A DNA stretch of 64,000 nt from Polynucleobacter sp. (GTDB lineage Bacteria > Pseudomonadota > Gammaproteobacteria > Burkholderiales > Burkholderiaceae_D), in the NCBI GenBank assembly GCA_021737945.1, contig JAIPCX010000001.1, positions 62,001 to 126,000 of the forward strand, read 5' to 3'. Below are positions 6,831 through 60,030 of the stretch, piece after piece; within the stretch, counting starts at the first letter, position 1, and every line of letters begins with the position of its first letter. Below the pieces are notes generated by a model that was not told the origin of the DNA, ran no database searches, and saw nothing but the letters and a program-made list of their open reading frames with translations. The position numbers were made by a program, and so were the translations under genes.

Positions 6831-7787
6831 ATGCTTCCTTTTATTAGCGGCACCGAACTCAAGCAGTACCTGCCTTATCCCATGCTGATCGAAGCTTTGC
6901 GAAAAACATTCACGCAAGTGAATCATGCACCGCTGCGTCATGCGCATCGTGTATCTGAACCAGGTCCGACGACGCTTTTAATCATGCCCGTCTGGCAGGA
7001 ATCAAAACAGCTTGGCCTTAAAGTGGTCACCGTCGCGCCTGAAAATCGTGGTCAAGGTTTACCGACCGTGCACGCTCTGTTTATATTGATGGATACCGCT
7101 ACCGGTGTGCCGATTGCACTCATGGATGGCGAACAGCTTACGCTACGACGTACGGCTGCAGCGTCTGCTTTGGCTTCGGATTATTTATCGCGCAAAGAGA
7201 GTCAACATCTTCTGCTGGTGGGCACAGGACGCTTAGCGCCGCACATGACTATTGCCCATTGCATGATGCGACCGATTCAACACGTTAGTGTATGGGGACG
7301 AAATTCACACAGCGTTGCGCAGACTGCCGAGGCATTACGTAAAGAAGGCTTACCTGAGCACATTACTATTATTGAGTCGCATGATTTATCGCAGTCAGCC
7401 CAACAAGCTGACATCATCTGTTGTGCTACTACGAGCAAAGAGCCTTTAATTTTTCATGACTGGGTAAAACCTGGCACGCATATCGATCTGGTCGGCGGCT
7501 TTCGACCCGATATGCGCGAGGCAGATGATGAGCTGATGCGTCATGCACAAATTTTTGTTGACACAGTCGAAGGCACGCTAGCTGAAGCAGGTGATTTAAT
7601 TCAGCCTATACAAAAGGGATTAATCACCAGTGGTGCCATACGTGCTGAATTAGCGGATTTGACCACTGATCGTCATGCGGGTCGATTAAATAACGACGAC
7701 ATTACCGTCTTTAAATCAGTAGGCACAGCGATTGAAGATTTGTGTGCTGCTAGTCTGGCTTGGGATTCTTGGAAATTAACTAGGTAG
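6831..7787 (+). CDS. Ornithine cyclodeaminase / mu-crystallin family protein
   Basis: 318 residues of the OCD/mu-crystallin fold, NAD(P)-dependent enzymes that include ornithine cyclodeaminase, alanine dehydrogenase and ketimine reductases. The family stretch ALMDGEQLTLRRTAAASALASDYL (about residues 99-122) contains the Arg-Thr-Ala-Ala motif. A nucleotide-binding LLVGTGRLAPH follows near 128, and the C-terminal DTVEGTLAEAGDLIQPI (about 245) carries the usual acidic residues. The exact substrate is not decided by sequence, so no gene symbol is given. It lies divergent from dacB, and its stop abuts the pirin stop. Confidence 0.88.
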   Translation: MLPFISGTELKQYLPYPMLIEALRKTFTQVNHAPLRHAHRVSEPGPTTLLIMPVWQESKQLGLKVVTVAPENRGQGLPTVHALFILMDTATGVPIALMDGEQLTLRRTAAASALASDYLSRKESQHLLLVGTGRLAPHMTIAHCMMRPIQHVSVWGRNSHSVAQTAEALRKEGLPEHITIIESHDLSQSAQQADIICCATTSKEPLIFHDWVKPGTHIDLVGGFRPDMREADDELMRHAQIFVDTVEGTLAEAGDLIQPIQKGLITSGAIRAELADLTTDRHAGRLNNDDITVFKSVGTAIEDLCAASLAWDSWKLTR

Positions 7788-8675
7788 TCACCGCTTCAGC
7801 GCATCTGGCAAAGGAATGAATTCCGTTTCTTCTGGCACTGTTGCAAAACGTTGATGCAACCAATCGTCGCTGGCTTGTCGAATTCTCTCTTCACTACTTG
7901 ATACAAAATTCCATGCCATTGTCCGTGGCCCGTCTAATAGTTCGCCACCAAGCAGCATGATAATGGCGCCTTGTGATCCACCACGTATCTCCATACGTGC
8001 ACCTGTGCGTGTAACGAGCAAACAGCCTGCACTATGCACACCATCGATTCCACAGTCAATTTCACCACTCACTATATAAAGAGCTTGCTCGGTATATTCC
8101 GTAGGTAGTAAAAATTTCGCTGATGGCTGCAAGGTCAACTGTGCGTAAACTAGCGGAGATCGAGTCGGCAAGCTCGATTGCATTCCCATAAAGCTTCCTG
8201 CTACTAATATGATGTGTGCGCCATCGAGCATTAATGTCGATAACTCGGATGCTTTTTGGTGAGTGAAATCTGGTTCGCACTCTTCATCCGCTTGCGGCAG
8301 CGCTACCCAACATTGCAAACCATATAAAGAAGAAGCTTGTTCGCGCTGTTGCGTATCGCTACGCTCTGAGTGCACTATGCCGCGCCCTGCTGTCATCCAA
8401 TTGACTTCACCGGGTCGAATAGTTTGCACATAGCCCAAACTATCGCGATGCAGAATTTCACCTTCCAACAACCAGGTAACCGTTGCCAGACCAATGTGAG
8501 GATGAGGACGAACATCCAAACCTGATCCCGGCGCGAATGAAGTAGGACCCATCTGATCGAGGAATACAAACGGACCGACCATGCGACGCTCGGCAGCAGG
8601 AAGCGCGCGCCTGACCTGAAAGCCATCACCTAGATCGCGAACTCGCGGAACAATAATAGTTTCTAAATTTGACAC
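7788..8675 (-). CDS. Pirin family protein
   Basis: Bicupin protein of 295 residues, cytoplasmic. The metal-site segment RPHPHIGLATVTWLLEGEILHRDSLG (about residues 56-81) supplies the three His and one Glu that bind iron in characterised pirins, and MTAGRGIVHSE follows, as in quercetinase-type members. The C-terminal cupin is more divergent. Bacterial pirins act as quercetin dioxygenases or as partners of metabolic enzymes, and the sequence does not decide between these roles. It is convergent with the OCD-family gene and lies upstream of, and divergent from, groES. Confidence 0.9.
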   Translation of the reverse strand: MSNLETIIVPRVRDLGDGFQVRRALPAAERRMVGPFVFLDQMGPTSFAPGSGLDVRPHPHIGLATVTWLLEGEILHRDSLGYVQTIRPGEVNWMTAGRGIVHSERSDTQQREQASSLYGLQCWVALPQADEECEPDFTHQKASELSTLMLDGAHIILVAGSFMGMQSSLPTRSPLVYAQLTLQPSAKFLLPTEYTEQALYIVSGEIDCGIDGVHSAGCLLVTRTGARMEIRGGSQGAIIMLLGGELLDGPRTMAWNFVSSSEERIRQASDDWLHQRFATVPEETEFIPLPDALKR

Positions 8676-8851
8676 AATTTATTCTCCAGTGATGCGAATC
8701 ATGCCTGAAAGACTTTGCATAAAGGCTAGGCGCCTAATCATATTTACCAAAATAAAGATTCAAGAATGCTCACTAAGTCGGCTAAAAAGTCGAGGATTAT
8801 CAATTCGATATTCGATTTTGAATAATTTATATGAAGTTTTCAGAAGTGCTT

Positions 8852-34034: not shown

Positions 34035-34411
34035 GGGGGCGACCTGGTTTCGACAGGGGTTGCAAAGCAGCGCAGGGCATACCGAGGGCTGGTCACCTCG
34101 TAAATCCAACCGGAATTGCTTAAATGCAAACGAAGAAAATTACGCTCTCGCAGCGTAAACCCCTGAGAACTTAATAACTTCTTAGCTCTACACCGTCTTG
34201 TCGCTGGGGCGGGCTGGCAACAGCGGTAGAGTCATTCACAGCGAATCGCGTTGCGTCGGGTCACTTGGCACAACGTTAAATTTAGGTGACTCGTTTTGCT
34301 GCAGCGTGTGTGTCCGCGTCAGCAAGATTAAATTCAAACGACAACACTAAGTATGTAGAACTGTCTGTAGAGGACTTTTGGACGCGGGTTCGATTCCCGC
34401 CGCCTCCACCA
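34035..34411 (+). ncRNA. ssrA: Transfer-messenger RNA (tmRNA)
   Basis: Rescues stalled ribosomes and tags their products for proteolysis. The 5' end GGGGGCG pairs with CGCCTCC at the 3' end (7 bp, one G-U), leaving ACCA, and the T-arm GCGGGTTCGATTCCCGC is intact. The tag reading frame is at 34126-34158 and encodes ANEENYALAA followed by TAA. A candidate -10 (TACAAT, 34014-34019) lies upstream without a clear -35. The 3' end is a frequent attachment site for integrating elements, and GC-rich foreign DNA follows directly. Confidence 0.97.
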
Positions 34412-34738: not shown

Positions 34739-37700
34739 TCAGACGGAATATCCATTCTTCGCCGTCTTGAGCGAAATTTTCCCGTCGCTACTTTGCTGAT
34801 TGCTCTGCCTGCTTGCGAACACGTGGATTGCCAGGGTCACCATCTCACGGGTAGACGTGAACTGTTGGAGGCCTGCTGGTGTCAAAACGAGGTAGCAACC
34901 TTCACCCCACAGAGACTCCGCGTCGATATCAACTGGGCCGGCGTCACGCCACCAATAGAGCTTTGCGACCAGGGCTCCGCTGGCGTCGAGAAAAACGTTC
35001 GGTTCTTCGTCATGTGCGCGCCATTGAAGCCTCCTCACCCAGTTCGGACACAACGCGAACGGATAGGCTGCTGCGTCAAAGCCCATGTCCACAGAGCAAA
35101 CGACTCGTCTTACCAGCGTTGGCGCCAATTGATTGTCAAGTGGGACGTAGTGGCCTAGCCAAACAGCGATCGGCAGCCTGGCATAGCAGTCGTCGAAGTC
35201 TTCGCCGTTGGTCTGTGCCAAGGGTGCTCTAAAACGGGTGAGACGGTATTCCGACAGACGCGGCTTGAAAATCTTGAAGCGCGACACCTCGGCTACGACC
35301 TGACCGTCTCGGTGTGCCGGGAAGGGCGCAACGTCGCCGTCGACTTCCTCAACCCACTTCCGCTGTTGCTCGGCCCAACCGGCACTTCGATCAATCAGCG
35401 GCAGTCGAATCCATTCCGGGCGTGCCTGTGGGAGCTGCAGCGGTCGAGGTGGAAGCGGGAAACCCAAATGCTCCAACAAAGTAGGCCTGTCGCGGATGTT
35501 CAGCTTGCCGGCCAGCCGCAATTCTCCCGCGACGTGGCGAAGGGCAGTAATGGCAATGTAGGCATGGGGCTTTAGATAAGTGATCTGCATGTCGAGGACG
35601 CGGAGCTGACCCTCAAGCCTTTTGACGCCAGAGGGCCCGAATCCCTCAAGTCCCCCCCAATCCTGAATGAACATCGCCGCGCGTCGGCGAACTGTCATCT
35701 CCTCAATGCCTGCCGCCTTCGCAATGTGATGTGCCGTCGAGCGCAACATCTCGGTCCAGCCAAGAGGCGACTCGACGCGCATTGCACCGGTTCTCTCGTC
35801 CGTGAATGCCTCCTCGCTCTCTGGCGGGTATTCGAGTTCGAGACGATAGAAGAGCGGCAGCGGTATTGCGTCCAAGTGAACAGCCAGCCCCCACCGGTGC
35901 GACAAGAGCGCGGCTGACTCTGCCACCGCGATGTCACGGTGACTGACCAACGCAGCCACAGCGCTGCCCAACTCGGGTGCAGGGTCCGCGCTGTCAGCAG
36001 CCAGCAGCGTTCCGAGCGCCTGCAAGGGGGCATCTAACTCGTCGGCCATAAGTCGTTGCATAAGGGACTTGAACAACGACTCACCGAGACCGGCTTGCCT
36101 TGCCAAGCTCAGCGTGCAATTGCGTGCGTGTCGCTGAACTTCTGCAACCGGGAGCCGATAGGCAAAGTGCAGCAAATCCTCCAGAAGTTCCGTGTCGCTG
36201 AGCGGTAGCTCGCTCGGCTTGAAGGGCTGCCCCAACTGGAACTCGCGAGTGCAGGCTATCTGCTCCTCAAGCAGTGACCAGATGGCCGGCCAATCCGGCG
36301 CCGCGCTGATTACCGGCAGTATCGAATCCAGTTCTGTCAGCAGCGACTGGGTGTTCTCCTGTCCCGCCGTCACTGAATCGACGATGTTCTCGAAGGCAGC
36401 GGGGCATGTGGATGGCCCCAGCAAAAGTTTCTTCGCCTCAAAGTAGAAGAACTTGCCGCCACCCATCCACTGGCTCCAGGAGCTCCAGGGATCCTTGCTT
36501 GTCTCATAGCCTTGCATCAGCTTGTTGGCGTACTCGACCTCACCCGCCAAAGCAAGCCGCTTCACCATCAGGAAACGACAGCGCGCGTTGTCCTGCAAGA
36601 CCTGCCAGCGCTCAAACATCCTCCCCGCCAGATCAAGCGGAGCTGCCTCAGCCAGATCCCTGAAGCGGTGCGGTGCGTTGTAGTTCAGTTCGTCGCCATC
36701 CGCTTCGAACGCGCGCTCAAGCTCTTCCAGAGTGGCGTCCGAGTCGTACTTGCTGGGCGTGGACGAGTGTCGAGGTTCCGGCGCTTCTGACGTCCAGCGG
36801 GCTACGGCGGTGTCGAGCTCGACTGACGAAAACCCATGTTTTACGGCAGCAGTGCGAAGGCGCTGGAGTAGTCCGACCCTTTCGTGTGCCCTGCTGGCTA
36901 CCTGGATTACCCCCAAAAGCATCAGCGCGAGCGGTTCGATCTGTCCAGGGCCTGCAGCATCGGCGGCACCGTCGATGAAGTCGCCGACGTGGTACGGGTC
37001 CCGGTAGTACGGTTCCATGTAGAACGGCAGGCACAGCCCGCACCAGACGGTCGCGCAGGCCCAGACGAGTTCAGGGCTTCGCCGGACCATCCCCGTCATA
37101 AGCAGGTCGACACGGTTCGGCCAGCCAATCAAATGCCAATCCGCCAGTGTCTTTGACACCTCGAAGCCGAAGCGAGGTCCGACCTGCATCGCTTCCTCAA
37201 TTAGCGACATCGTCAGGCGATGCGCAGCCGACGACCCTTCCGTTTCGGCCATGCCGCCGACCTGACGCATCAAGTTTGAGACCCGCTTGACACGGTTCTC
37301 CGGATCGGCGGCGTTCGCGAGGACCAGGATGTCTCGCCAGATTGCGTACTGCGGGTCTTTTTTGGGAGCCAAAGCGTACCCAAGGCATTGCTCGGGAACC
37401 ATCGCCAGCAACTGTTTCGCCCGCTCTAAGTCCCCGACCGTAGCCAACGCGATGGCCAAATCCGCCAACCCGTCGATCTGCTCGCTTGGCGTGCTCTCTT
37501 GAAGCTCTGCCACGAGGGCGTTGAGCCGGTCGACGGCCGCCACCCTGTCGCCGTCAACCCGATACGCATCGACGGCCAGTCTACGTCGCAGGTACGCAGT
37601 ACCCCCCTGCGTCGATGAGGCGATTGCGGCGTCAACTTGTCGAAGTACTGCGCGGTACTCATCCTCGCCACACTTTGCGCCAAGCCTCAGCAGCGCTTGC

Positions 37701-40700
37701 GCGAGCACGGGGACAGCTTTGAAGGCTTGCTGAATACGATATGACTCGCTGCCGCCTTGTGATGTCAGACGTAGGACGTACCCAAGGGCAACGCGGGCTT
37801 CGTCCTGGATGCTGCCAGCCGGCACGGTTACGTTGTCGACCGCGACGCGACCTAGTAGCACGCCTATCGTCGAGGCGTGCTGCTGGAACGGGTGAAGGAA
37901 GCTGTGCTTCGACGGTATCGCGCTCGGCAGCGGCTTATTGAGCAGGGTGCAAAGCCTCGCGTGATGCATCACCGCGCCGACCAGATCACCCAGCCCAGCC
38001 AAGTCCGTCTCTTCGTCGCACATGGAGATCATCGGTGCGACCAACTTGGCGAACAGAGCCTCGGCTAGGTCATGACGACCAGCTTCGAATGCAATCAGTG
38101 CCATCCGGCGCCGGTAGCCGTTGGGCACCTCTCCGAAGCCAGGAAGGGCGGCAGCGGCATCAAACAGGGCAAGCGCTTGCACTGCTTCGCCGCGCCGATT
38201 TGCCGCAAGCCCTGCATGAACCATCACAGACGGCTTGTCTTCGTCGGCTACCCCGAGCTTGCTGCAGAGTTCTCGTGGATCGGCGTCAACCTTCTGAAGA
38301 AGCATTGCCTTGGCTGCTTCCCTCCTCAGATGCTGGCGTAGCGCGACGACAGTTTCTGGATCCACCTTCTCGGGCTGGCGCAGCCCCTCTGCGGCGAGGT
38401 GGTCAATCGCTGTTTGGATCTGCTCAGTGTCTCGGAAGTGGACGGCGCGCCTTGCCCACCTTTCGAATTCCTTGATGTTGTGGTCGTGCCCGTGGTTCTG
38501 GAACTTGGACGTATGGAGCTGCGACAGTGGCTCGAGGCTTTCAAACAGCTCCTTCGCGCGCTCGAAGTCGCCTCGCGCCACCATGGCGTCGACGACCTCG
38601 TAGCCCTGGCTGGGGAAGCACTGTACGAAGGAAAGGGCTGCATCAATGTCCCCGACCGCCAGCATCGCCAACGGAAGCTGGTTGGCGTACTCAAGGGCTG
38701 TTTCGCGCCGCCCAACTTCGTCACGACACAGCAGCAGCCGTGCGAAGGCGGTCGTGTCGTGCGTTGCACGCACAGCCAGCAAAGCCAGGCGGATATCGGC
38801 ATGGATCTCGGCGATTGAACGCCCGTCGGCCAGTTGCTGCCTGAAGCGAGCGGGCATCGCTAGTTCAAGTACATCGGCACCGTCGCCGGCACGGGCGCGG
38901 TAGCGCAGCTCAAGCCAGTGCTGCGCCGATTCGGGCGGCGCGTTTTTCGCCAACTTGGCGAGGTCGCGGTACACGCGCTGCGAGTATTCGGCGTCGACGG
39001 TTCCGAGGCGGGTTCGCGGTTGAGCGATGACGAATAACCTAAAGCTGTTGTGGAAGACGCTCCACCCCTGGGATGAACTGCGGAGCAGGTGCCGTGCAAC
39101 GATCAGCGCGCGTTCAATCGCGGACTCCTTGACCATCGTTTCCAGCAGCCGCAGGTCAATGGGTGCCTCCGCCCGAGCGATGTAGCCCAGCACGTCCATG
39201 GCATCGACATCGCTTGCGATCTCGCGCCAAGCAGCGGTGTAGACGGTCTCAATATCGCCGTCGAACGGCATGCCGCCGCTGAGAAGGTGCTTACGTCCGG
39301 CTTCGTCCGCGTGCAGTAGCGCCTGAATCAAGTAACGCGTTGCCAACGGGTGGCCATGCGTGAGATTGCTCAGATCCAATCTCGGAATCTCGGCAGGCAG
39401 GCCAAGCGCATCCGCCATCCGGGCGACCTCCTCGCGGCCGAGAGGCCCCATGAGAACCTGTCGCTCGCTCTTCTCCGCTTGCTCTCTTACGGCGGGCTTC
39501 AGATTTGCGAGATCCAGTCGCTGCGTGCCGAGCACGAACACAACCCCATTGGGGATGGCTGCGGGAAGAGGCAGCTCGCCCAGAAGCGAATTGGTCGGTC
39601 GCTCTTCGCGAGGCACATGGTCGAGCCCGTCGACGACGATGATTGTTCGGATCCCGTCGCGGTCGAAGCGTTCACCAGCCTGCCGCACCATCACGCCGAA
39701 CTGTTCGCGGCGCTCATGCAGCGAGTCATCGCGAAGACGAAGTCCAAACAATCCGCTTTTGCGCAGCTGCGTGCCGACGTCGGTCAGGAAGTTGTCGGCC
39801 TCCCCGCGCCCTACGCCTTGAGCAGCGCCTGGCAAGTACGCCAAGTAGCGAACGAACCGGACATTGGCTTCAGTGGCCAGCGCAACCTGCAGAAGAGTGG
39901 ATTTCCCGGAGCCAGGCGGTCCTATGAGTGAGACATAGCCCTGATGGGCGGCATGCAGCGCGGCTAGCAGCTTGACCTCAGTGTCGCGGTTGCGCTGGAC
40001 ATAGGCGCCGATCGGGAACCGATGGATGAGCAGCGTCTTAGCGGGATCGCGCCAGCCAAGCTCACGAAGCAACTCGTCACGCGTCCATCTGTCTTTGTCG
40101 CGCGCATCCGCGACCAGTTTAGGCAGTACGCTGGCAATCTCGGATGCCTGCCGCGCCTGCTCGGCGTTCAGCTTGTGCGACTGGATGAAGTCGGCCGCAG
40201 CTCCGCACACCACACGGAGACTGTGTAAGAACTGTTCGAAGTCGTCATCGCCCAAGTCGGCTTCACGGCGCAGGTGGTTAATCAGTCGGCTCCATTCCGG
40301 CGTGTACCAATCCGATAGCGGCCGATTTGGATGCTGCTGGAACTCTTCAAGAAATGCCGCGCTGTGGGGCGGCGTGCCGTCGCCTGGCTTGTCAGTAATC
40401 GACGGAAAGTCGTTGACAACCAGGCGAATCTCGACCCGGCTTCCTGGGTTGACCTTGCTCAGGCATCGCCAAGCATGAACCAGGGGCTTCAATAAGCCGT
40501 TGGCGCCAGTAAACAGCGTCTCAACCCTGAAGGGGCCAGGGAACTGGGACGTCTTAAACTGATGGCCAACCACCAATCCATCGAAGCCAAGTACCAGGTC
40601 GTCGGCAATGCCCGCGCTGCGGTCGGCGACTCCTATCCAAAGCAGCTCGTCGCGCTCAAGCGAAGCATAGATGGCAGCGCCCGCGCGCTCGTACTGGCCG

Positions 40701-40786
40701 ACGTATCCACGAAGAGCTCGGCGCTCGCCTTCCGCCGGCGCCATTGCAGGAGTTGTGGCGGTAGGTGGCTCCGGTTTTTTGACCAT
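34739..40786 (-). CDS. Giant STAND-type NTPase with N-terminal nuclease-like domain (Avs-like defence protein)
   Basis: 2,015 residues, cytoplasmic. The N-terminal 130 residues resemble the Cap4/DUF4297 type of PD-(D/E)XK nuclease: ADDLVLGF (Asp 62/63) then GHQFKTS (Gln76-x-Lys78). A P-loop follows (LIGPPGSGKSTLLQVA, about 287-302) with Walker B TIIVVDGLDHV (about 381-391), the layout of STAND ATPases. From about 600 to the end the protein is helical-repeat-like (many AxxLFxxL and ALAxxLxxxG motifs), the part that in Avs proteins recognises phage products. The size suits Avs proteins, but I cannot place it in a numbered Avs class. It is the last gene of a four-gene minus-strand cassette, 45 bases after the QueC-like gene. 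Confidence 0.82.
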   Translation of the reverse strand: MVKKPEPPTATTPAMAPAEGERRALRGYVGQYERAGAAIYASLERDELLWIGVADRSAGIADDLVLGFDGLVVGHQFKTSQFPGPFRVETLFTGANGLLKPLVHAWRCLSKVNPGSRVEIRLVVNDFPSITDKPGDGTPPHSAAFLEEFQQHPNRPLSDWYTPEWSRLINHLRREADLGDDDFEQFLHSLRVVCGAAADFIQSHKLNAEQARQASEIASVLPKLVADARDKDRWTRDELLRELGWRDPAKTLLIHRFPIGAYVQRNRDTEVKLLAALHAAHQGYVSLIGPPGSGKSTLLQVALATEANVRFVRYLAYLPGAAQGVGRGEADNFLTDVGTQLRKSGLFGLRLRDDSLHERREQFGVMVRQAGERFDRDGIRTIIVVDGLDHVPREERPTNSLLGELPLPAAIPNGVVFVLGTQRLDLANLKPAVREQAEKSERQVLMGPLGREEVARMADALGLPAEIPRLDLSNLTHGHPLATRYLIQALLHADEAGRKHLLSGGMPFDGDIETVYTAAWREIASDVDAMDVLGYIARAEAPIDLRLLETMVKESAIERALIVARHLLRSSSQGWSVFHNSFRLFVIAQPRTRLGTVDAEYSQRVYRDLAKLAKNAPPESAQHWLELRYRARAGDGADVLELAMPARFRQQLADGRSIAEIHADIRLALLAVRATHDTTAFARLLLCRDEVGRRETALEYANQLPLAMLAVGDIDAALSFVQCFPSQGYEVVDAMVARGDFERAKELFESLEPLSQLHTSKFQNHGHDHNIKEFERWARRAVHFRDTEQIQTAIDHLAAEGLRQPEKVDPETVVALRQHLRREAAKAMLLQKVDADPRELCSKLGVADEDKPSVMVHAGLAANRRGEAVQALALFDAAAALPGFGEVPNGYRRRMALIAFEAGRHDLAEALFAKLVAPMISMCDEETDLAGLGDLVGAVMHHARLCTLLNKPLPSAIPSKHSFLHPFQQHASTIGVLLGRVAVDNVTVPAGSIQDEARVALGYVLRLTSQGGSESYRIQQAFKAVPVLAQALLRLGAKCGEDEYRAVLRQVDAAIASSTQGGTAYLRRRLAVDAYRVDGDRVAAVDRLNALVAELQESTPSEQIDGLADLAIALATVGDLERAKQLLAMVPEQCLGYALAPKKDPQYAIWRDILVLANAADPENRVKRVSNLMRQVGGMAETEGSSAAHRLTMSLIEEAMQVGPRFGFEVSKTLADWHLIGWPNRVDLLMTGMVRRSPELVWACATVWCGLCLPFYMEPYYRDPYHVGDFIDGAADAAGPGQIEPLALMLLGVIQVASRAHERVGLLQRLRTAAVKHGFSSVELDTAVARWTSEAPEPRHSSTPSKYDSDATLEELERAFEADGDELNYNAPHRFRDLAEAAPLDLAGRMFERWQVLQDNARCRFLMVKRLALAGEVEYANKLMQGYETSKDPWSSWSQWMGGGKFFYFEAKKLLLGPSTCPAAFENIVDSVTAGQENTQSLLTELDSILPVISAAPDWPAIWSLLEEQIACTREFQLGQPFKPSELPLSDTELLEDLLHFAYRLPVAEVQRHARNCTLSLARQAGLGESLFKSLMQRLMADELDAPLQALGTLLAADSADPAPELGSAVAALVSHRDIAVAESAALLSHRWGLAVHLDAIPLPLFYRLELEYPPESEEAFTDERTGAMRVESPLGWTEMLRSTAHHIAKAAGIEEMTVRRRAAMFIQDWGGLEGFGPSGVKRLEGQLRVLDMQITYLKPHAYIAITALRHVAGELRLAGKLNIRDRPTLLEHLGFPLPPRPLQLPQARPEWIRLPLIDRSAGWAEQQRKWVEEVDGDVAPFPAHRDGQVVAEVSRFKIFKPRLSEYRLTRFRAPLAQTNGEDFDDCYARLPIAVWLGHYVPLDNQLAPTLVRRVVCSVDMGFDAAAYPFALCPNWVRRLQWRAHDEEPNVFLDASGALVAKLYWWRDAGPVDIDAESLWGEGCYLVLTPAGLQQFTSTREMVTLAIHVFASRQSNQQSSDGKISLKTAKNGYSV

Positions 40787-40831
40787 TCTCGGGACTATGT
40801 GATTGGATTAAATTTTGGTGAAAAACTGCTT

Positions 40832-42991
40832 CTAGAGAACTCTTTCAGCATCACCCAGTACTTCCAGCCCCATAGGCCGCACATCCCAGACGATTGGCGC
40901 TCCTGGACGATAGACCACCTCATTGCCGTGCTTGATGCTAGCCTTCAGGTGCTCGGCCAGCGGCTTATCGTACTTCCCGATGGCCGCGATTGCCCGGTTG
41001 ACAGCATTGCGGAACGCGTCGCGGACATTCTTCCGCTTGTCGCCAGCCTTGCGGAGCTTGCCGCCCTTGCCAACACCTGCAGTGATTTCATCGGCAATCT
41101 GCGCCATCTCGTCCTCGATCTCCTCCACACGCTGGTGATCACCATCCTCCTCGGCTTCCGCTTTCTCGGTGACAAGCGATTGATACGTGGCGCGATACTG
41201 CTCGACAGCTTTCCTGTCCATAACGACTCCCGCGTCGCCTAGTGGCGCTCCGGTCGTCACCTGAAATCCATCTTCGATGTCATCGTGCTCTAGCCCGGAA
41301 TTAACCCGGTCGGCGACGCCCAGCGCATAGCCGCAGACGATCTCATAGACCGATGTCTCACGATCCGGGAACGCCAGCAACAGGTTGATGTATTCAGCCC
41401 CCTTGTCGACGCCTTGGATCAGGATCGGGTGTCGCCCTCGTCCTTGAAAACGTGCCTCCCAGACGTTGCCGCGTTTTCGGAAGAGGTTGTCCGGCAGCTT
41501 TTCGGCCGACACCACGGTGGGCATGGAGACCACCGAGCCGGACTCGTAGGCTGTCCGAACCAGGCTATCGCCGGGCAGTGTCCGTTCGCGGATGGCGGTG
41601 CGGTGCCGACTGAGCAGTTCGTCCAACGCCCCCATTACCTCATTGGCGTGCCGCTTGTAGAGATCAAACACACGCTGAGCGACTTGAGCTGTGTCACCGC
41701 CCAGGAATTTGAAAACCCGCCCCACATCGGGGTAGCTGCTGACAAACTGCGCGACATCGGTCAGGTTTCGCACCTGGTTAGCGCGCTCCAGATAGGCCGC
41801 TGCCATGATCTTGTCGACATTTTTCTTCTGGTCCTGGGCATCGCGGCTCTGGGTGAACACGTCAAATTTGTAGTGATCCACCGGGTCATACTGATCGGCC
41901 TTGGCGGCAAGCACCGCAAAGCGCCGGTCGATGCATTGCGAGCATCCACCGCAATGGGTGTGCTGGTTCGTCATCTCCCAGGTATGCGTGCAGGTCATCG
42001 AATGCCTGATCAAGTCTTCGCAGCCCGCATCCGTGATGACCTTGACGACATCGGCCTTGGTTTTCCAGATGTACGGGTTCTCGACGGTGAAGGCTTCGCC
42101 GGCCACCAGAGATATGATGTCCTGAAAGCCCTTCATTACCCGGGGATGCGTTGTGCGTGTGGCGCGACCACCGACCACCTGGGCGCACACCGGTAGATTC
42201 AGACTGATGACGCCGTTTTCGTAGAAACGCACGCTGTTGAGGCCCAGCATCTTGGCGATCGTCGCCCCGATGGAAACGTACAGGAATGACCGACTGCGCT
42301 GGGTGTATTCATGGTTCATTTCCTTGCTCTTGTGCACCCGGACGGTAATACGGGGCGGTGCATTGCCATTGGCCTTCTCGGCCAGGAGGTTCTCAAGGGT
42401 TTGATGGCGCTTGTTGAGCTTGTTCGTGGACTTGTGCGTCACCAACAGCACACGCCGTTTCTGGTTGACCACCTCGTCGATGGCACCGGCCAGCGAATCC
42501 AGGCCGCCAGAGAACATCACCACCTGCTCAGGCTTGCGGTACATCTGCTGGGTATCGTCGAACCCGAGGTACTCCTGGAACGGATGATCCTGGTCCAGCT
42601 TGATGAAGTCGAACTGGTACTGGTCATCAGAAAGGAAGCCGAGCGTCGCGCACAGCACCTCTTGGACGGGCGCGCTGTTCCAGAAATCCGGGTTCCGCAC
42701 TGGCACGACGAAATGCAAGTCGCGTCGCCAGCCGTCGCCGAAGGTGTCGACATCATCTGCGCCGCGCCGGATGACCTGGTCGGTGCTGTAGACGTAGGTG
42801 GCGACCTCCAGCAGATCGTTGAACAGCGAGGGCACCGGCTGGAACATTTTTCGGTGGACATCCTCGATGCGCAGGGTGATGTTGCCTTTGCCTTCCTTGC
42901 CAGACAGGCGCAACCGCAGATCGCGTTCCGGATCTTCGCTGACGCCCTTGGCGGAGGCATTACCACACAGGATGTATCGTTTATCTTGCAT
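40832..42991 (-). CDS. QueC-like PP-loop protein with unknown C-terminal half
   Basis: 719 residues. The N-terminal 150 are unassigned. A QueC-like domain follows: the PP-loop VMFSGGLDSLAGA (Ser161-Ser166 core) and a zinc site made from MTCTHTW (Cys334) and HCGGCSQCIDRR (Cys347, 350, 353), matching the four cysteines of the 7-cyano-7-deazaguanine synthase QueC. No queuosine genes lie nearby, so a housekeeping role is unlikely. QueC-like proteins are known in the Qat and type IV CBASS defence systems. Residues about 400-719 are not recognised; they include a charged, helical stretch (EKAEAEEDGDHQRVEEIEDEMAQIAD). The gene overlaps its upstream neighbour by 11 bases, implying coupling. Confidence 0.82.
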   Translation of the reverse strand: MQDKRYILCGNASAKGVSEDPERDLRLRLSGKEGKGNITLRIEDVHRKMFQPVPSLFNDLLEVATYVYSTDQVIRRGADDVDTFGDGWRRDLHFVVPVRNPDFWNSAPVQEVLCATLGFLSDDQYQFDFIKLDQDHPFQEYLGFDDTQQMYRKPEQVVMFSGGLDSLAGAIDEVVNQKRRVLLVTHKSTNKLNKRHQTLENLLAEKANGNAPPRITVRVHKSKEMNHEYTQRSRSFLYVSIGATIAKMLGLNSVRFYENGVISLNLPVCAQVVGGRATRTTHPRVMKGFQDIISLVAGEAFTVENPYIWKTKADVVKVITDAGCEDLIRHSMTCTHTWEMTNQHTHCGGCSQCIDRRFAVLAAKADQYDPVDHYKFDVFTQSRDAQDQKKNVDKIMAAAYLERANQVRNLTDVAQFVSSYPDVGRVFKFLGGDTAQVAQRVFDLYKRHANEVMGALDELLSRHRTAIRERTLPGDSLVRTAYESGSVVSMPTVVSAEKLPDNLFRKRGNVWEARFQGRGRHPILIQGVDKGAEYINLLLAFPDRETSVYEIVCGYALGVADRVNSGLEHDDIEDGFQVTTGAPLGDAGVVMDRKAVEQYRATYQSLVTEKAEAEEDGDHQRVEEIEDEMAQIADEITAGVGKGGKLRKAGDKRKNVRDAFRNAVNRAIAAIGKYDKPLAEHLKASIKHGNEVVYRPGAPIVWDVRPMGLEVLGDAERVL

Positions 42992-43769
42992 CGCTGCGTG
43001 CTCCCGCCTTCAATTCGTCCTTCATCTTGGTCAGTGCATAGCTCGCAAAGCCATCCGACGATTTCCTCGAAATGTCGCCGCCTTCCTCAAAGCGATGTTT
43101 AGAAAACCACTCGCTGGAAAACTGCTCAACGATCACCGACGCCTCCCGGGTATGGGTTTCCAGCGCCGCGTTAAAAACAGCGGACTGATTCATCGTCGCA
43201 AACCGCATCCCGTCGCCGAGCTGGGTGTTGACGACCTTGCTCAGGAAATATTGCAACCCCTCGTTGGCCAGCCGGGCGAAAAAGCGCCGCGAGAACTCGC
43301 CGAATTCCTTTGGTCTGCCCAAGTCCGCAAGCGCCGCCCGTATCGTGTCAGGGTCGGATGCGAACAGCGAGTGAAGCTTGGGTGACAAGACATCGTTGAC
43401 GGCTCCGACGATGGCCCGATTGGCCAGCCCGCCCAGGTCGGATCGCTCGCGGTTCCCCTCCACGCGACGGTCCAGTGCCTCCGTGATTGCCGTGGTCACG
43501 TCGATAAGCGACGGATCTGAGGGGAGATGAATGCCTGCCGCCGCCAGGTGCTGCAGGATGTCGGGCTTCTTCGCGGCAATCGCCATTTGCGTCATCAACC
43601 AGACGGCCTCGGTGTAGCCCACATCCTTCATGACGAAGGAGAAGGCTTTTTCCGCCGCCGTGATGGTGGCATTGGCGATTTGGGAAACGTCCGCCCCGGC
43701 TGCAATCAGCCCGACGACCTCCTTCCACGCCCTTGTCCTTGGCAATAGCCCAAGCCGAACATGCCCCAT
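42981..43769 (-). CDS. Unknown protein coupled to the QueC-like gene (possible substrate or partner)
   Basis: 262 residues, no family recognised. It starts MGHVRLGLLPRTRAWKEVVGLI with AAGGGGAA upstream and is all-helical by eye, with no cysteine-rich, membrane or catalytic signature. A Gly immediately after the initiator Met would be exposed by Met removal. In Qat systems a small partner (QatB) accompanies the QueC-like QatC, and the gene position here is analogous; resemblance to QatB itself is not demonstrated. The end overlaps the QueC-like gene by 11 bases, so the two proteins are probably made together. Confidence 0.7.
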   Translation of the reverse strand: MGHVRLGLLPRTRAWKEVVGLIAAGADVSQIANATITAAEKAFSFVMKDVGYTEAVWLMTQMAIAAKKPDILQHLAAAGIHLPSDPSLIDVTTAITEALDRRVEGNRERSDLGGLANRAIVGAVNDVLSPKLHSLFASDPDTIRAALADLGRPKEFGEFSRRFFARLANEGLQYFLSKVVNTQLGDGMRFATMNQSAVFNAALETHTREASVIVEQFSSEWFSKHRFEEGGDISRKSSDGFASYALTKMKDELKAGARSDAR

Positions 43770-43804
43770 CCAGGATTCCCCTTGTTGATATCAGCGCATC
43801 GCGG

Positions 43805-44038
43805 TCACTCATTCCGTTTTACGACCACGATGCTCCGCGCTTTCTTTACTTCTTTCCTCAAATACCCCTTGCGTACCAATTGCGTGATCTGCTCGTGTGC
43901 ACTGGCGTGGCTGATGCCAAGCGCCTCGGCCAATTCCTTGACGGTGGGCGGCAGGCCGGTGCTGTCAAGGAGTTGGCAGATCACATTCAGTGTTCTTGCC
44001 TGCGGCTCCGTAATGCCTTCGGTCCTCTTTTTGCTCAT
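43805..44038 (-). CDS. LexA-type winged-helix regulator
   Basis: 77 residues from the ATG at 44038, which has GGAG 7 bases upstream. A TTG-initiated longer form would begin at the predicted transcription start and is rejected. Sequence TEPQARTLNVICQLLDSTGLPPTVKELAEALGISHASAHEQITQLVRKGYLRKE reads as a LexA DNA-binding domain: helix, then the helix-turn-helix ELAEALGISHASAHEQI, then the wing. The LexA peptidase domain is missing, so release must be by another route than self-cleavage. It is the first gene of the cassette, directly under a promoter with a perfect palindrome in its spacer, which suggests autorepression of the whole operon. Confidence 0.85.
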   Translation of the reverse strand: MSKKRTEGITEPQARTLNVICQLLDSTGLPPTVKELAEALGISHASAHEQITQLVRKGYLRKEVKKARSIVVVKRNE

Positions 44039-44063
44039 GGCATCGCTCCAGGCCAATGGTTCA

Positions 44064-44092
44064 AATATATGACCTGATAAACATCAGGTCAA
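44064..44092 (-). promoter_or_regulatory. Sigma-70 promoter with embedded operator for the defence cassette
   Basis: On the minus strand, TTGACC (44092-44087) and TATATT (44069-44064) are separated by exactly 17 bases. The spacer and the -35 edge are occupied by the perfect inverted repeat TGACCTGAT - 4 bases - ATCAGGTCA (44070-44091). Transcription would begin near 44057, giving a leader of about 20 bases before the ATG at 44038. A dimer of the winged-helix protein bound here would exclude RNA polymerase. Confidence 0.82.
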
Positions 44093-44264: not shown

Positions 44265-44453
44265 ATGATCGTCGAACAAACACTCCCTGAATTGATGTCT
44301 CCACGCCAAAGGGCGTGCGAAGCCGCAGAAATCCTGGCCGCCGCCATCGCCCGACTGCATTCCACTTGTCCCCGAGAAAGCGAGATTCCTCTTGGCTTCT
44401 TGGCACCCGAGCGCGTTCATACAAACCCGTCTACAGAAGGAGTTTGCAAATGA
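44265..44453 (+). CDS. Small protein of the DUF2924/recombinase module
   Basis: 62 residues from ATG 44265 (MIVEQTLPELMSPRQRACEAAEILAAAIARL); a longer in-frame form from 44118 lacks coding character. The helical segment resembles short proteins that commonly precede DUF2924 and the serine recombinase in proteobacterial prophages. Its stop overlaps the DUF2924 start (ATGA). Function unknown. Confidence 0.65.
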   Translation: MIVEQTLPELMSPRQRACEAAEILAAAIARLHSTCPRESEIPLGFLAPERVHTNPSTEGVCK

Positions 44454-44911
44454 ACGTACCGACAGCCGCCCCATCCTTGGCGGCTCAAATTGCCAATCTG
44501 CCCAAGTTGGCCATGAATGATTTGTGGGTGCTTTGGGACAGGTATTTCCCGCGCCGTCCGCCGCACAACAACCGCGCCTACGTCGAAGGCCGGGTGGCCT
44601 ACAAGATCCAGGAAGAAGCCCTTGGCACCAAGCTGGTCGTCCAGACCCAGATGGCCCGGATCGGTGAAGCCCAATCGCGGATCAAGACGCAACGCGGCGT
44701 CGAAGTCCAGGTCGTGCCCGGCACGGTGTTGGTGCGCGAATTCGACCGCCGTGAGCACCGCGTCACAGCGCAGGCCGACGGCACTTTCGAATACGAGGGT
44801 CGCCGCTACAAGAGTTTGTCTGCCGTCGCCCGCCACATCACGGGCACCCAGTGGTCTGGGCCCCTATTTTTCGGGATCACCAAAAACAAACAGAAGCGAG
44901 GTGCCAAATGA
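44450..44911 (+). CDS. DUF2924 family phage protein
   Basis: 153 residues from ATG 44450, preceded by AAGGAG. The core IANLPKLAMNDLWVLWDRYFPRRPPHNNRAYVEGRVAYKIQEEA is the DUF2924 signature, and the C-terminus ends LSAVARHITGTQWSGPLFFGITK, a basic strand-rich module common in this family. It is nearly always found directly upstream of a large serine recombinase, so a role as recombination accessory or DNA-binding protein is likely. It overlaps the recombinase start by 4 bases. Confidence 0.88.
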   Translation: MNVPTAAPSLAAQIANLPKLAMNDLWVLWDRYFPRRPPHNNRAYVEGRVAYKIQEEALGTKLVVQTQMARIGEAQSRIKTQRGVEVQVVPGTVLVREFDRREHRVTAQADGTFEYEGRRYKSLSAVARHITGTQWSGPLFFGITKNKQKRGAK

Positions 44912-46275
44912 ACGACGTCGTGACCAAAAAGCGCTGCGCCGTCTACACCCGCGTCTCAACGGACGAACGCCTCGACCAATCTTTCAATTCACTGGATGCT
45001 CAGCGCGAGGCAGGCCAAGCCTACATCGTCAGCCAGCGCGCTGAGGGCTGGTTGCCGGTGGGCGACGACTACGACGATGGTGGCTACTCGGGCGGCAACA
45101 TGGAACGCCCGGCATTGAAACGCCTGATGGCGGACATCGCTGCAGACCAGATCGAAATCGTGGTCGTTTACAAGATTGACCGCCTGACGCGCAGCCTGAC
45201 CGACTTTGCCAAGCTGGTGGAGGTGTTCGAACGGCACAAGGTGTCGTTCGTGTCGGTGACCCAGCAGTTCAACACCACCACGTCCATGGGCAGGCTCATG
45301 CTCAACATCCTGCTGTCCTTCGCACAATTCGAACGAGAGGTCACGGGCGAACGCATCCGCGACAAGATTGCGGCCAGCAAGCGCAAGGGCCTGTGGATGG
45401 GGGGCTACACGCCGCTTGGGTACGAGGTCAAAGACCGCAAGCTGGTCATCGAGGAGAAGGACGCCGCAACCATCCGGCGCATCTTCACCCGATTTACGGA
45501 AATCCAGTCGATCACGGACATCGTTCGGGAACTGTCCCTGGAAGGGATCACCACCAAGCCCAACCGCCTGAAGGACGGCAGCACGCGCAATGGCACGCCG
45601 ATGGACAAAAAGTACATCTCCAAACTCCTGCGCAACCCCATCTACATCGGCGAGATTCGCCACAAAGATTCCGTATTCGCGGGCCAGCACGAGCCAATCA
45701 TCACTCGCCAGTTGTGGGATCGGGTGCAAGCCATCCTCGGCGAGGATGCTCACCAGCGTATGGGCAAGACCCAGACCCGGCACAAAACCGATGCCTTGCT
45801 GCGCGGGCTGATGTATGGGCCCGACGGTGGCAAGTACCACATCACCTACAGCAAGAAGCCCTCGGGCAAGAAGTACCGCTACTACATCCCCAAGGCGGAC
45901 AACCGGTACGGCTACCGCAGCAGCGCCACCGGGATGATTCCCGCCGACCAGATCGAAGAGGTGGTGGTAAACCTGCTGGTCGGTGCGCTCCAGTCCCCCG
46001 AAAGCATCCAAGGCGTCTGGAACACCGTGCGTCGCCAATATCCGGAGATCGACGAGCCGACCACCGTGCTGGCGATGCGCCGCATCGGTGAAGTCTGGAA
46101 GCAACTGTTCCCTGCCGAGCAGGTGCGGCTGGTCAACCTGCTGATCGAACGCGTCCAGCTCCTCTCCGACGGCGTCGACATCGTCTGGCGCGAATCCGGC
46201 TGGCGGGATCTGGCCGGGGAGCTGCGGCCGGACAGCATTGGCGGCGAAATGCTGGACATGGAGGTGGCGGCATGA
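44908..46275 (+). CDS. Large serine recombinase (prophage integrase)
   Basis: 455 residues. The resolvase domain has the catalytic Ser in CAVYTRVSTDE (Ser17), DDGGYSGGNMERPALKRLM, and VVYKIDRLTRSLTDFAKLVE with the conserved Arg residues. The recombinase domain follows (GYTPLGYEVKDRKL, then YISKLLRNPIYIGEIRHK near residue 250). The usual zinc ribbon is present only as LLRGLMYGPDGGKYHITYSKK with its cysteines lost, as in other DUF2924-linked members. It probably integrates and excises the prophage; the attachment site is not seen. It starts inside the DUF2924 stop and ends inside the next start. Confidence 0.93.
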   Translation: MNDVVTKKRCAVYTRVSTDERLDQSFNSLDAQREAGQAYIVSQRAEGWLPVGDDYDDGGYSGGNMERPALKRLMADIAADQIEIVVVYKIDRLTRSLTDFAKLVEVFERHKVSFVSVTQQFNTTTSMGRLMLNILLSFAQFEREVTGERIRDKIAASKRKGLWMGGYTPLGYEVKDRKLVIEEKDAATIRRIFTRFTEIQSITDIVRELSLEGITTKPNRLKDGSTRNGTPMDKKYISKLLRNPIYIGEIRHKDSVFAGQHEPIITRQLWDRVQAILGEDAHQRMGKTQTRHKTDALLRGLMYGPDGGKYHITYSKKPSGKKYRYYIPKADNRYGYRSSATGMIPADQIEEVVVNLLVGALQSPESIQGVWNTVRRQYPEIDEPTTVLAMRRIGEVWKQLFPAEQVRLVNLLIERVQLLSDGVDIVWRESGWRDLAGELRPDSIGGEMLDMEVAA

Positions 46276-56884: not shown

Positions 56885-58309
56885 ATGACGCCAAACCTGC
56901 AGATCGAATACCGGCCGATCGATGCGCTGCTGCCTTACGCGCGCAATCCGCGCACGCATTCCCCAGCCCAGATCGCCAAGATCGCGGCCAGCATCGTGGA
57001 ATTTGGCTGGACGCAACCCATCCTGGTCGATGGGGACAACGGCATCATCGCCGGTCACGGTCGCTTGGCCGCTGCGCGCAAGCTGGAGTTGCCCGAGGTC
57101 CCGGTCATTGAACTGGGCCACCTCGCCCCGGCGCAAAAACGCGCCTACGTGATCGCCGACAACCGTCTGGCGCTGGATGCGGGTTGGGACGACGAGTTGC
57201 TGGCGCTCGAGATAGCGGAGCTGTCTGAGGCCGGTTACGACTTGCTGATGACAGGCTTTGACGATGACGAGTTGGCACAGATGCTGGCTGACTTGGGTGA
57301 TGCTGAAAGCAGCGAGTCTGGAGATGAGCCGGATGCCGATGAGGAAAGCGACGTTCCCGAACCACCCAAGCAGTCTATCTCCCGCCCGGGCGATGTCTGG
57401 CAGTTGGGCCCGCACCGCCTGATCTGCGGCGACGCGTCCGATCCATCCGTGATCACCACCCTGATGCAGGGCGAGCAGGCCAGCCTGTGTTTCACCTCGC
57501 CCCCTTACGGCAACCAGCGCGACTACACCTCTGGCGGCATTGCCGACTGGGATGGCCTGATGCGCGGCGTGTTCGCGCAAGTGCCCATGGCCGCCGATGG
57601 CCAGGTGCTGGTCAACCTCGGCCTGATCCACCGCGACAACGAGTTCATCCCGTATTGGGACGCATGGCTCGACTGGATGCGCAGCCAAGGCTGGCGACGG
57701 TTTGCCTGGTACGTGTGGGACCAGGGGCCAGGGATGCCCGGCGACTGGCAGGGGCGCCTGGCGCCCAGCTTCGAATTCATCTTCCACTTCAACCGCCAGA
57801 CACGCAAACCCAACAAGACGGTGCCCTGCAAGTTTGCCGGCCAGGAGACCCACCTGCGTGCCGACGGATCCTCGACCGCGATGCGCGGCAAGGATGGACA
57901 AGTCAACGGCTGGACCGCTGCCGGTCAACCGACCCAGGACCACCGCATCCCCGATTCGGTCATCCGGGTCATGCGCCACAAGGGAAAGATCGGCAAGGAC
58001 ATCGATCACCCGGCCGTCTTTCCGGTGACGCTGCCGGTGGAGGTCATTGAGGCGTACACCAATGAAGGCGAGATCGTGTTTGAGCCCTTTGGCGGCAGCG
58101 GCACCACGCTGATGGCCGCCCAGCGGACAGGGCGTATTGGCCGCGCGGTGGAGATCGCACCCGAGTACGTCGACGTGGCGCTGCTCCGTTTCCAACAGAA
58201 CTTCCCTGGCGTGCCGGTCACCCTGGCCGCCACCGGAGAACCCTTTGAGGTTGTTGCTCAACAACGCAAAGCCGAGCATCGACAAGAGAGCGAACATGCA
58301 ACTGTCTGA
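56885..58309 (+). CDS. ParB-like nuclease domain fused to DNA methyltransferase (first copy)
   Basis: 474 residues. The N-terminal ParB/Srx-like domain has LLPYARNPRTHSPAQIAKIAASIVEFGW and GIIAGHGRLAAARKL (about residues 14-64). The methyltransferase follows: motif IV TSPPYG (about 208-213) and motif I FEPFGGSGTTLMAA (about 399-412), in the permuted beta order. SPPY favours cytosine-N4 but adenine-N6 is possible. Such fusions are typical of phages and protect phage DNA. The start is odd (no ribosome-binding site after the terminator). It overlaps the endolysin start by 14 bases. Confidence 0.9.
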   Translation: MTPNLQIEYRPIDALLPYARNPRTHSPAQIAKIAASIVEFGWTQPILVDGDNGIIAGHGRLAAARKLELPEVPVIELGHLAPAQKRAYVIADNRLALDAGWDDELLALEIAELSEAGYDLLMTGFDDDELAQMLADLGDAESSESGDEPDADEESDVPEPPKQSISRPGDVWQLGPHRLICGDASDPSVITTLMQGEQASLCFTSPPYGNQRDYTSGGIADWDGLMRGVFAQVPMAADGQVLVNLGLIHRDNEFIPYWDAWLDWMRSQGWRRFAWYVWDQGPGMPGDWQGRLAPSFEFIFHFNRQTRKPNKTVPCKFAGQETHLRADGSSTAMRGKDGQVNGWTAAGQPTQDHRIPDSVIRVMRHKGKIGKDIDHPAVFPVTLPVEVIEAYTNEGEIVFEPFGGSGTTLMAAQRTGRIGRAVEIAPEYVDVALLRFQQNFPGVPVTLAATGEPFEVVAQQRKAEHRQESEHATV

Positions 58310-58745
58310 ACATTTCGAACTGGCCGAGTTTCTGGTCTCCGAGACTGCCGCTCGCCGTGGCATCAGCAACGAGCCCAACCCTGAGGTCATCGAGAACTTG
58401 CGTCGGCTGTGTCAATTGGTGCTGCAGCCGCTGCGCGCTCACCTCAAGCGCACGGTGGTGATCACCTCCGGCTACCGCTCGCCGGCATTGAACCGCGCGA
58501 TCGGCGGCAGTCCGACCAGCCACCACATGCAAGGGCGTGCGGTGGACCTCATCGTGCCAGGCATGACGCCGTTGCTCGTATGCCAGGCCGCCCACCAGTT
58601 GAAGCTGCCCTGCGTGCAGATCATTCACGAGTTTGGACGTTGGACCCATCTGGCAGTGGCGATCTCGAATGAGCGCACCCAGTTGCTCACGGCCAAGCTG
58701 GCGCAGGGCAAGACCATCTACGAAGCGGGGCTGGTCCATGTCTGA
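58296..58745 (+). CDS. Peptidase M15-type endolysin
   Basis: 149 residues from ATG 58296 (MQLSEHFELAEFLVSETAARRG). The zinc-peptidase M15A signatures are SGYRSPALNRAIGG (about 59-72), SHHMQGRAVDLIV (His and Asp ligands, about 75-87) and WTHLAV (about 114-119, third His). It has no signal peptide, as expected for an endolysin that needs a holin; a small membrane protein follows two genes later. It is placed between the two methyltransferase fusions, overlapping both. Confidence 0.87.
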   Translation: MQLSEHFELAEFLVSETAARRGISNEPNPEVIENLRRLCQLVLQPLRAHLKRTVVITSGYRSPALNRAIGGSPTSHHMQGRAVDLIVPGMTPLLVCQAAHQLKLPCVQIIHEFGRWTHLAVAISNERTQLLTAKLAQGKTIYEAGLVHV

Positions 58746-60030
58746 ACCTTGGCTCTCTACCCAAATCGAACGCTGGCCGACTGCCAAGCTCGTGCCCTAC
58801 GCCCGCAACGCCCGCACCCATTCCGAGGAGCAGGTGGCGCAGATTGCGGCATCCATCGTCGAGTTCGGCTTCACCAATCCGATCCTGGCGGGATCCGATG
58901 GCGTTATTGTCGCCGGTCACGGACGGCTGGCCGCTGCACAAAAGCTCGGTCTGGATACCGTGCCCGTGGTCGTGCTCGATCACCTGACGCCCACCCAGCG
59001 ACGTGCCCTCATCATTGCGGACAACCGCATTGCAGAAAACGCCGGTTGGGACGACGCCATGCTGCGCATCGAATTGCAGTCGCTGCAGGAAGACGGCTTC
59101 AACCTGGATATCACCGGATTTGACGCCGATGCCCTGGCCGAAATCATGGCGGGCGAAGAGACCACGGTCGATGGCCAGACGGACGACGATGCGGTGCCCG
59201 AGGTACCCGTCACTCCGATTTCCCGCCCAGGTGATGTTTGGGAGATGGGCAAGCACCGACTGGTGTGTGGCGATGCCACCGACCCTAGGAGCTACGAGCT
59301 GCTGATGGCCGACGCCCAAGCCAACATGGTGTTCACCGATCCACCGTACAACGTGGACTATGCCAATAGCGCGAAGGACAAGATGCGTGGCAAGGACCGT
59401 CCGATCCTGAACGACAACCTGGGCGATGGCTTCTACGATTTCTTGCTGGCGGCGTTGACCCCGATGCTGGAGCGTTGTGCAGGCGCCACCTACATCGCCA
59501 TGTCGTCCAGCGAACTCGACACGCTGCAGCAGGCCTTCCGTGCTGCCGGTGGTAAGTGGTCAACCTTCATTATCTGGGCCAAGAACACTTTCACGCTTGG
59601 ACGGGCCGACTACCAGCGCCAGTACGAGCCCATCCTGTATGGCTGGCCCGAAGGAGAGAACCGCCACTGGTGCGGTGACCGCGACCAGGGCGACGTGTGG
59701 AATATCAAGAAGCCGCAGAAAAACGACCTGCACCCGACCATGAAACCGGTGGAGCTGGTCGAGCGCGCGATCCGCAATTCCAGCCGACCGGGTGACATCG
59801 TGCTCGACCCGTTTGGCGGCTCCGGTACCACCCTCATCGCCGCTGAAAAAACCGGCCGCATCGGTTGGCTGATCGAACTCGACCCCAAGTACGTCGATGT
59901 GATCGTGCGCCGCTGGCAGGACTGGAGTGGGCACGAAGCCTACCGGGAAGCTGACGCAGTGAAGTTCAACGACTTGGCGGCTTTGGCAAGCATGCTGATT
60001 TCAGAGAACCCACAGGAGGCCGACGCATGA
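58738..60030 (+). CDS. ParB-like nuclease domain fused to DNA methyltransferase (second copy)
   Basis: 430 residues from ATG 58738. The N-terminal ParB-like domain is clearly homologous to that of the first copy (LVPYARNARTHSEEQVAQIAASIVEFGF, GVIVAGHGRLAAAQKL). Motif IV is FTDPPYNVDYANSA (about 198-211), pointing to an adenine-N6 or related enzyme, and motif I is LDPFGGSGTTLIAAEKTGRIG (about 354-374). The motif IV difference from the first copy suggests two different target specificities. It overlaps the endolysin by 8 and the next gene by 4 bases. Confidence 0.92.
   Translation: MSEPWLSTQIERWPTAKLVPYARNARTHSEEQVAQIAASIVEFGFTNPILAGSDGVIVAGHGRLAAAQKLGLDTVPVVVLDHLTPTQRRALIIADNRIAENAGWDDAMLRIELQSLQEDGFNLDITGFDADALAEIMAGEETTVDGQTDDDAVPEVPVTPISRPGDVWEMGKHRLVCGDATDPRSYELLMADAQANMVFTDPPYNVDYANSAKDKMRGKDRPILNDNLGDGFYDFLLAALTPMLERCAGATYIAMSSSELDTLQQAFRAAGGKWSTFIIWAKNTFTLGRADYQRQYEPILYGWPEGENRHWCGDRDQGDVWNIKKPQKNDLHPTMKPVELVERAIRNSSRPGDIVLDPFGGSGTTLIAAEKTGRIGWLIELDPKYVDVIVRRWQDWSGHEAYREADAVKFNDLAALASMLISENPQEADA

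Follow-up and report, generated by a model that had tools for sequence, protein, structure and literature searches.

A prophage-borne Met-Gly/QatC-like gene pair resembling a reduced branch of Qat, beside a STAND gene that appears to be separate cargo

Do four tightly packed genes near an integration site in Polynucleobacter sp. form one defence system or two? The genes lie in a 64,000-nucleotide stretch (the window; positions 62,001 to 126,000 of contig JAIPCX010000001.1) and encode a helix-turn-helix (HTH) protein, a protein beginning Met-Gly, a QueC-like enzyme and a large STAND-type NTPase (Table 1). A sequence-only reading had proposed that all four act together. Their order, strand and close packing are as it described: 35 bp separate the HTH and Met-Gly genes, the Met-Gly and enzyme genes overlap by 11 nt, and 45 bp separate the enzyme and STAND genes. 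Their distribution speaks against joint action, and two systems rather than one are very likely. The Met-Gly protein and the enzyme resemble a separate, reduced branch of Qat, a known anti-phage system, and the STAND gene looks like separate, interchangeable cargo in a prophage.

Distribution of the pair and of the STAND gene

A scan of genome contigs with an alignment of five QatC-like proteins yielded 156 relatives and a scan of viral contigs 138; we examined the best 80 of each (160 loci in all). By tblastn, 76 of the 80 genome relatives and 75 of the 80 viral ones have the Met-Gly partner. Of the four genome loci without it, L044 and L045 lie at contig edges, L046 has a truncated QatC gene and L030 is a real exception; L047 has a truncated partner, and the five viral loci without it all start at or near a contig edge. 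Since 137 of the 146 relative pairs measured overlap by 4, 8, 11 or 14 nt, the overlap is not due to chance. A LexA-type HTH gene accompanies the pair in 49 of 55 loci whose QatC is at least 60% identical and in one of the 105 others. The HTH protein, read earlier as a regulator and indeed LexA-type by its Pfam match, probably regulates the Met-Gly/QatC-like module.

The STAND protein gave no tblastn match in the 80 genome relatives and a single one in the 80 viral relatives. This locus (L109) is a 98% copy of the present prophage, in which the STAND arrangement is kept. Of the 157 loci with the QatC stop codon in view, 125 extend at least 1.5 kb beyond it, far enough for a STAND start to be visible. 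In an order-level sample of 399 genomes, our own included, nine have a QatC-like match at E ≤ 1e-10; the nearest relative (G080, the same genes as L033) shares HTH, Met-Gly and QatC proteins at 77 to 89% identity and the integrase at 90%, and it has a 159-aa gene in the STAND gene’s place. At E ≤ 1e-60 the STAND protein matched one of 369 genomes of the class, the one studied here, and the viral scan returned only the 98% copy. STAND matches occur in 35 plasmid records, six covering at least 80% of the protein. When nine plasmid STAND regions (L013, L014, L015, L017, L018 and L191–L194; L013 and L014 carry the same gene) were searched by tblastn with the Met-Gly and QatC proteins, nothing matched at E ≤ 1e-3. 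A gene 54% identical to the STAND gene was found in 11 of 5,426 E. coli genomes. The co-occurrence comparison suggested by the sequence-only reading thus turned out against it: the pair recurs without STAND, and the nine plasmid regions with STAND relatives show no match to the pair.

The four-gene block is the attachment end of a prophage, because a transfer-messenger RNA (tmRNA) gene lies on one side and an integrase and phage genes lie on the other. Beyond the integrase come genes for a Sak4-like annealing protein, primase, terminase, portal, head protease and tape measure. The earlier reading placed the genes beside an integration hot spot and did not recognise the prophage. Our tRNA search was given 31 loci, mostly of the close clade, leaving 28 after duplicates and remnants were excluded. 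An RNA gene follows qatC in 17 of these (tmRNA in 6, tRNA-Ala in 11); none was found in the other 11, several because the contig ends. All 17 RNA genes end in TCCACCA, followed by a similar terminator-like sequence in 12 and a looser form in two more. In 10 of the 17 loci the RNA gene lies 256–259 bp from the QatC stop codon, and in the other seven 765 to 3,294 bp from it. The corresponding distance in the window is 6,420 bp, almost entirely taken up by the STAND gene. Elsewhere the slot holds a ResIII-type helicase (L031), an AAA_21 ATPase with an HNH gene (L037), which we take to recall Septu, DUF4145 proteins (L121 and L123) or a 159-aa protein without a family (L033); among the longer slots inspected, no gene was identified in those of L028 and L029. 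Module remnants lie within ~2–5 kb of the tmRNA in two further genomes (L021 and L024). An integrase match was present in 104 of the 160 related loci, and some of the 56 without one are short contigs.

A Qat-like pair

The enzyme had been called QueC-like from its sequence, and it matches Pfam QueC (E 2.3e-8), PADLOC QatC (1.5e-58) and NCBIfam QatC (7e-66), the last with a score below the NF041925 equivalog cut-off (222.7 vs 280 bits). The QatC fold is present, including its N- and C-terminal extensions. The ATP loop SGGxDS with R-x-R and all four zinc cysteines occur in 155 of 155 QatC-like proteins, partly by selection, since one of the two viral scan patterns covered part of the loop and the collection scans used a zinc-motif pattern. 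Canonical QueC shares the SGGxDS loop and the zinc cysteines. In an alignment to 9zee, the window protein has both Thr278 and Thr280, which replace the Tyr/Asp of QueC and Cap9; T278 is found in 138 and T280 in 148 of the 155 proteins, the remainder having Ser. A phage collection of 50,697 records gave no Met-Gly match and two weak QatC matches, both in Listeria phages.

Searches of Pfam, PADLOC and NCBIfam (E ≤ 1) and of PHROGs (E ≤ 0.001) gave no family match for the Met-Gly protein. A profile built from 70 such proteins reached no QatB chain at E ≤ 1, and Foldseek alone returned nothing significant. Structural realignment alone revealed a helical QatB fold in the predicted model, which, with the QatC family matches, bears out the earlier view that the two proteins resemble the B-C core of Qat. 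The partner begins MGH in 142 of 145 cases. It does not have the MGTS motif of QatB, which appears in all 12 canonical loci read (in four inside a longer predicted frame, one of these from GTG). Nor does it have the long disordered N-terminal tail, 30–90 residues in many QatB proteins; the first helix of its model starts at residue 13. The Met-Gly protein is probably the protein substrate of the QatC-like enzyme. A natural in-frame Met-Gly/QatC fusion of 930 aa was seen at L055:4964-7756; its start reads MGT, not MGH.

Among 398 genomes sampled across the phylum, 78 contain some match to the QatC model at E ≤ 0.001, usually a weak one, and 14 besides our own reach E ≤ 1e-25. Of these 14 neighbourhoods, nine resemble QatABCD: all nine show a QatA match and eight a QatD match, and one is broken. 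Two others are Met-Gly-His pairs lacking QatA and QatD matches, and in the remaining three the partner is of a third kind, with MSDGP at its start or close to it. In a 53-row tree, in which 33 of the 37 MGH rows were hand-picked from the 160 loci for spread, each kind falls on one side of a branch (MGH 97/99, MGTS 100/99, MSDGP 100/89); the order among the three is uncertain because the MSDGP rows, the QueC outgroup and the Leptospira row are long branches. The three MSDGP loci (L238, L239 and L240) have QatC-like frames at 7158-8543, 7274-8653 and 7448-8824, with QatC in plus orientation. In each, a 189–195 aa gene lies directly upstream of the 458–461 aa QatC-like gene, with MSDGP at the protein start or, in two loci, a few residues inside the first frame, and frames that by eye resemble an HTH gene and a PIN-like gene follow.

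We hold with high confidence that the module is a Qat-like pair. It shares with QatABCD the QatC fold, ATP loop, Thr pocket and zinc cysteines, the predicted QatB fold and an N-terminal Met-Gly partner encoded just upstream of qatC. It differs in its MGH start, the absence of the long tail, an extra exchangeable C-terminal domain on QatC, its separate clade and its carriage by phage. No KAP ATPase (QatA) match was found among the neighbours scanned, where the upstream gene is that for the HTH protein, and L235 and L237 gave no QatA match. No TatD nuclease (QatD) gene follows QatC; next comes the STAND gene here, and other cargo or the attachment site in relatives. Type IV cyclic oligonucleotide-based antiphage signalling (CBASS) likewise places a QueC-type enzyme, Cap9, beside a protein with an N-terminal glycine. 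No CD-NTase accompanies the present enzyme, whose partner has the QatB fold, and no Cap10 (tRNA-guanine transglycosylase-like) gene occurs among the genes and neighbours scanned with Pfam; the Thr pair, too, is of QatC type, whereas deazaguanine binding relies on Tyr/Asp (PMC13279940). The absence of these four partners had been noted from the sequence. The conclusion then drawn, neither Qat nor type IV CBASS, stands for QatABCD and for CBASS, and needs amending in that the pair looks like a branch of Qat.

Beyond residue 478, the C-terminal domains of the 155 MGH QatC proteins differ, falling into 15 groups unlinked by BLAST; the window’s type (A) has 92 members and the second (B) 43. In two-sequence comparisons, type A resembles the C-terminal part of Streptomyces proteins of the AAA/STAND and TPR kinds (E 8e-15 and 2e-14), and in actinobacterial plasmid records it gives four matches of 3e-10 to 6e-8 and a fifth of 0.9. 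In the window protein no Pfam family passes its cut-off over this domain (DUF7260, 16.4 vs 27 bits), and no Protein Data Bank profile match is convincing. Type B gives weak matches to several HTH/winged-helix Pfam families (best 2.8e-4, none in more than 4 of 21 members); weak winged-helix matches occur in single type B members and in two of 25 type A members. In a Leptospira relative, the QatC C-terminus matches the DpnII-MboI nuclease family (1.2e-9); this protein lies with a Met-Gly-His protein on a Leptospira noguchii plasmid (L016:7207-9851). The extra domain probably senses or binds nucleic acid, and we infer that a fused DNA-binding domain may take QatA’s place.

The STAND protein and other features of the prophage

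The AAA/nSTAND matches of the STAND protein fall short of the Pfam cut-offs. Avs1b matches part of it (residues 277–764, 8.2e-19), and among solved structures it yields only P-loop matches. The earlier label, Avs-like STAND, holds for a STAND-type NTPase whose core resembles part of Avs1b and whose C-terminal region is weakly TPR-like; its score is far under the Avs1b cut-off (NF041810, 59.5 vs 1500 bits). Near the N-terminus, D63 and Q76-x-K78 are conserved in five aligned relatives, presumably the motif of PD-(D/E)xK nucleases. These residues are consistent with a nuclease; a Cap4 nuclease match appears in only one of the five, weakly (E 0.038).

A possible second attachment end lies at G000:C22:165916, where 48 bp match the tmRNA end at 90%. 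Much of this match is a terminator-like hairpin and a further match lies on contig C3, so it does not fix the right border of the prophage. In L249 (C22 152001-170000, 26–44 kb past the window end), frames that precede this match resemble by eye a type I restriction system and, beside it, an AbiEi/AbiEii pair; the stretch may be a second element or the far border. On the prophage’s right side (L108, about C22:147000-150050), two adjoining frames of 348 and 597 aa resemble by eye an ABC-three-component-type defence pair. Within the prophage, window positions 56885-58309 and 58633-60030 match N6/N4 DNA methylases and, weakly, ParB_N; perhaps these methylase genes serve self-protection against restriction.

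Table 1. Features of the prophage attachment end (window coordinates)
Feature	Position	Strand	Description	Match
HTH protein	43805-44056	minus	83 aa from TTG; true start uncertain	Pfam LexA_DNA_bind 3.6e-14
Met-Gly protein, QatB-like	42981-43769	minus	262 aa; begins MGHVRLGLLP; N-terminus MGHxRLGxLPxTxxW	
QueC-like enzyme, QatC family	40832-42991	minus	719 aa; core residues 1-478, extra C-terminal domain 479-719	
Type A C-terminal domain of QatC-like protein	40835-41554	minus	from residue 480; kin to C-terminus of actinobacterial AAA/TPR proteins	
STAND-like NTPase	34739-40786	minus	2,015 aa; possible N-terminal nuclease	
tmRNA gene, prophage attachment site	34035-34411	plus		
Large serine integrase	44851-46275	plus		Pfam Resolvase 1e-38; phrog_95 1.1e-110
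DUF2924 gene	44351-44911		precedes serine integrase gene	

Proposed function and alternatives

Passages of the published Qat work (PMC13279940, PMC13329287, PMC11996544, PMC10889362) state that against some phages QatB and QatC are enough, that both the N-terminal glycine of QatB and the active site of QatC are required, that QatC’s reaction is still unresolved, that qatA or qatD lies near about one-third of QatC-cluster genes and that cultures carrying QatABCD collapse when the phage dose is high; according to PMC13279940, P. aeruginosa QatA binds DNA. The two-gene branch is consistent with these data. Neither these passages nor the titles and abstracts searched describe it, with subscription journals and most preprints outside that search, and it may be in print elsewhere.

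Building on the pairing, folds, conserved residues, prophage context and neighbour exchange computed directly, we propose that a temperate phage carries the Qat-like pair at its attachment end under a LexA-type HTH regulator. The QatC-like enzyme would bind its QatB-like partner, activate a small carboxylated molecule with ATP and join it to the partner’s N-terminal glycine, by analogy with Cap9 and in line with the proposal for Qat; we lean toward this modification as the pair’s reaction. The host genome encodes a QueC of its own and a PTPS-family protein, so it can probably supply 7-deazaguanine precursors, whatever the QatC substrate may be. The modified partner would block competing phages, and the exchangeable, in places winged-helix-like C-terminal domain would do the task that DNA-binding QatA may do in QatABCD. 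The STAND gene, Avs-like and unrelated to the pair, would occupy the variable slot that separates the pair from the attachment site. Defence is a likely role for the pair, and the explanation as a whole, a prophage-borne two-gene Qat-like immune module with separate STAND cargo, is one we consider probable.

Other explanations differ in what they ask of the pair and its neighbour. If all four genes formed one system, QatC-type modification would license or trigger the STAND sensor-effector, which would kill the cell; the shared strand, short gap and likely single transcript fit this, as does the conserved arrangement in the 98% identical provirus. Such a system is rejected on distribution and is very improbable: STAND accompanies the pair in one of 160 loci, the slot in sister prophages holds other genes or nothing, and the nine plasmid STAND regions have no match to the pair. 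The pair might instead be a phage regulator or counter-defence device, its modified partner controlling lysogeny or opposing host defences. It is phage-borne, sits beside an integrase and a LexA-type regulator, and its QatC-like protein hits a PHROG family filed under moron/auxiliary metabolic. Kinship in fold and active site to the experimentally defensive QatBC (PMC13279940), a pair on a Leptospira plasmid and the loci without an integrase match make this unlikely.

The C-terminal domain could also be an effector, such as a nuclease, making the pair a complete sensor-killer with N-terminal modification as its switch. This is a variant of the explanation we prefer and does not exclude it. The Leptospira DpnII-MboI match and the 15 domain groups point that way, but types A and B give weak matches only, the recurrent ones winged-helix-like and none clearly catalytic; we consider it fairly unlikely.

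Prophage-borne as it is, the Qat-like pair tentatively suggests a wider picture, to which we give less than even weight: QatC-type modification may be a general immune chassis of at least three lineages, each with its own acceptor (MGTS, MGH or MSDGP), in which the MGH enzymes took in exchangeable sensor or effector domains and the fused domain replaced QatA. If so, the MGH lineage would be a largely phage-borne, self-contained two-gene system. The locus illustrates how phages carry such genes in a slot beside the attachment site, and it warns that adjacency in such a slot is a poor guide to a single system. A branch consisting of B and C alone, with a short partner tail and a fused domain, would offer a simpler setting in which to look for the reaction and the trigger, and its swapped C-terminal domains amount to an experiment by nature on the module’s sensing or activity.

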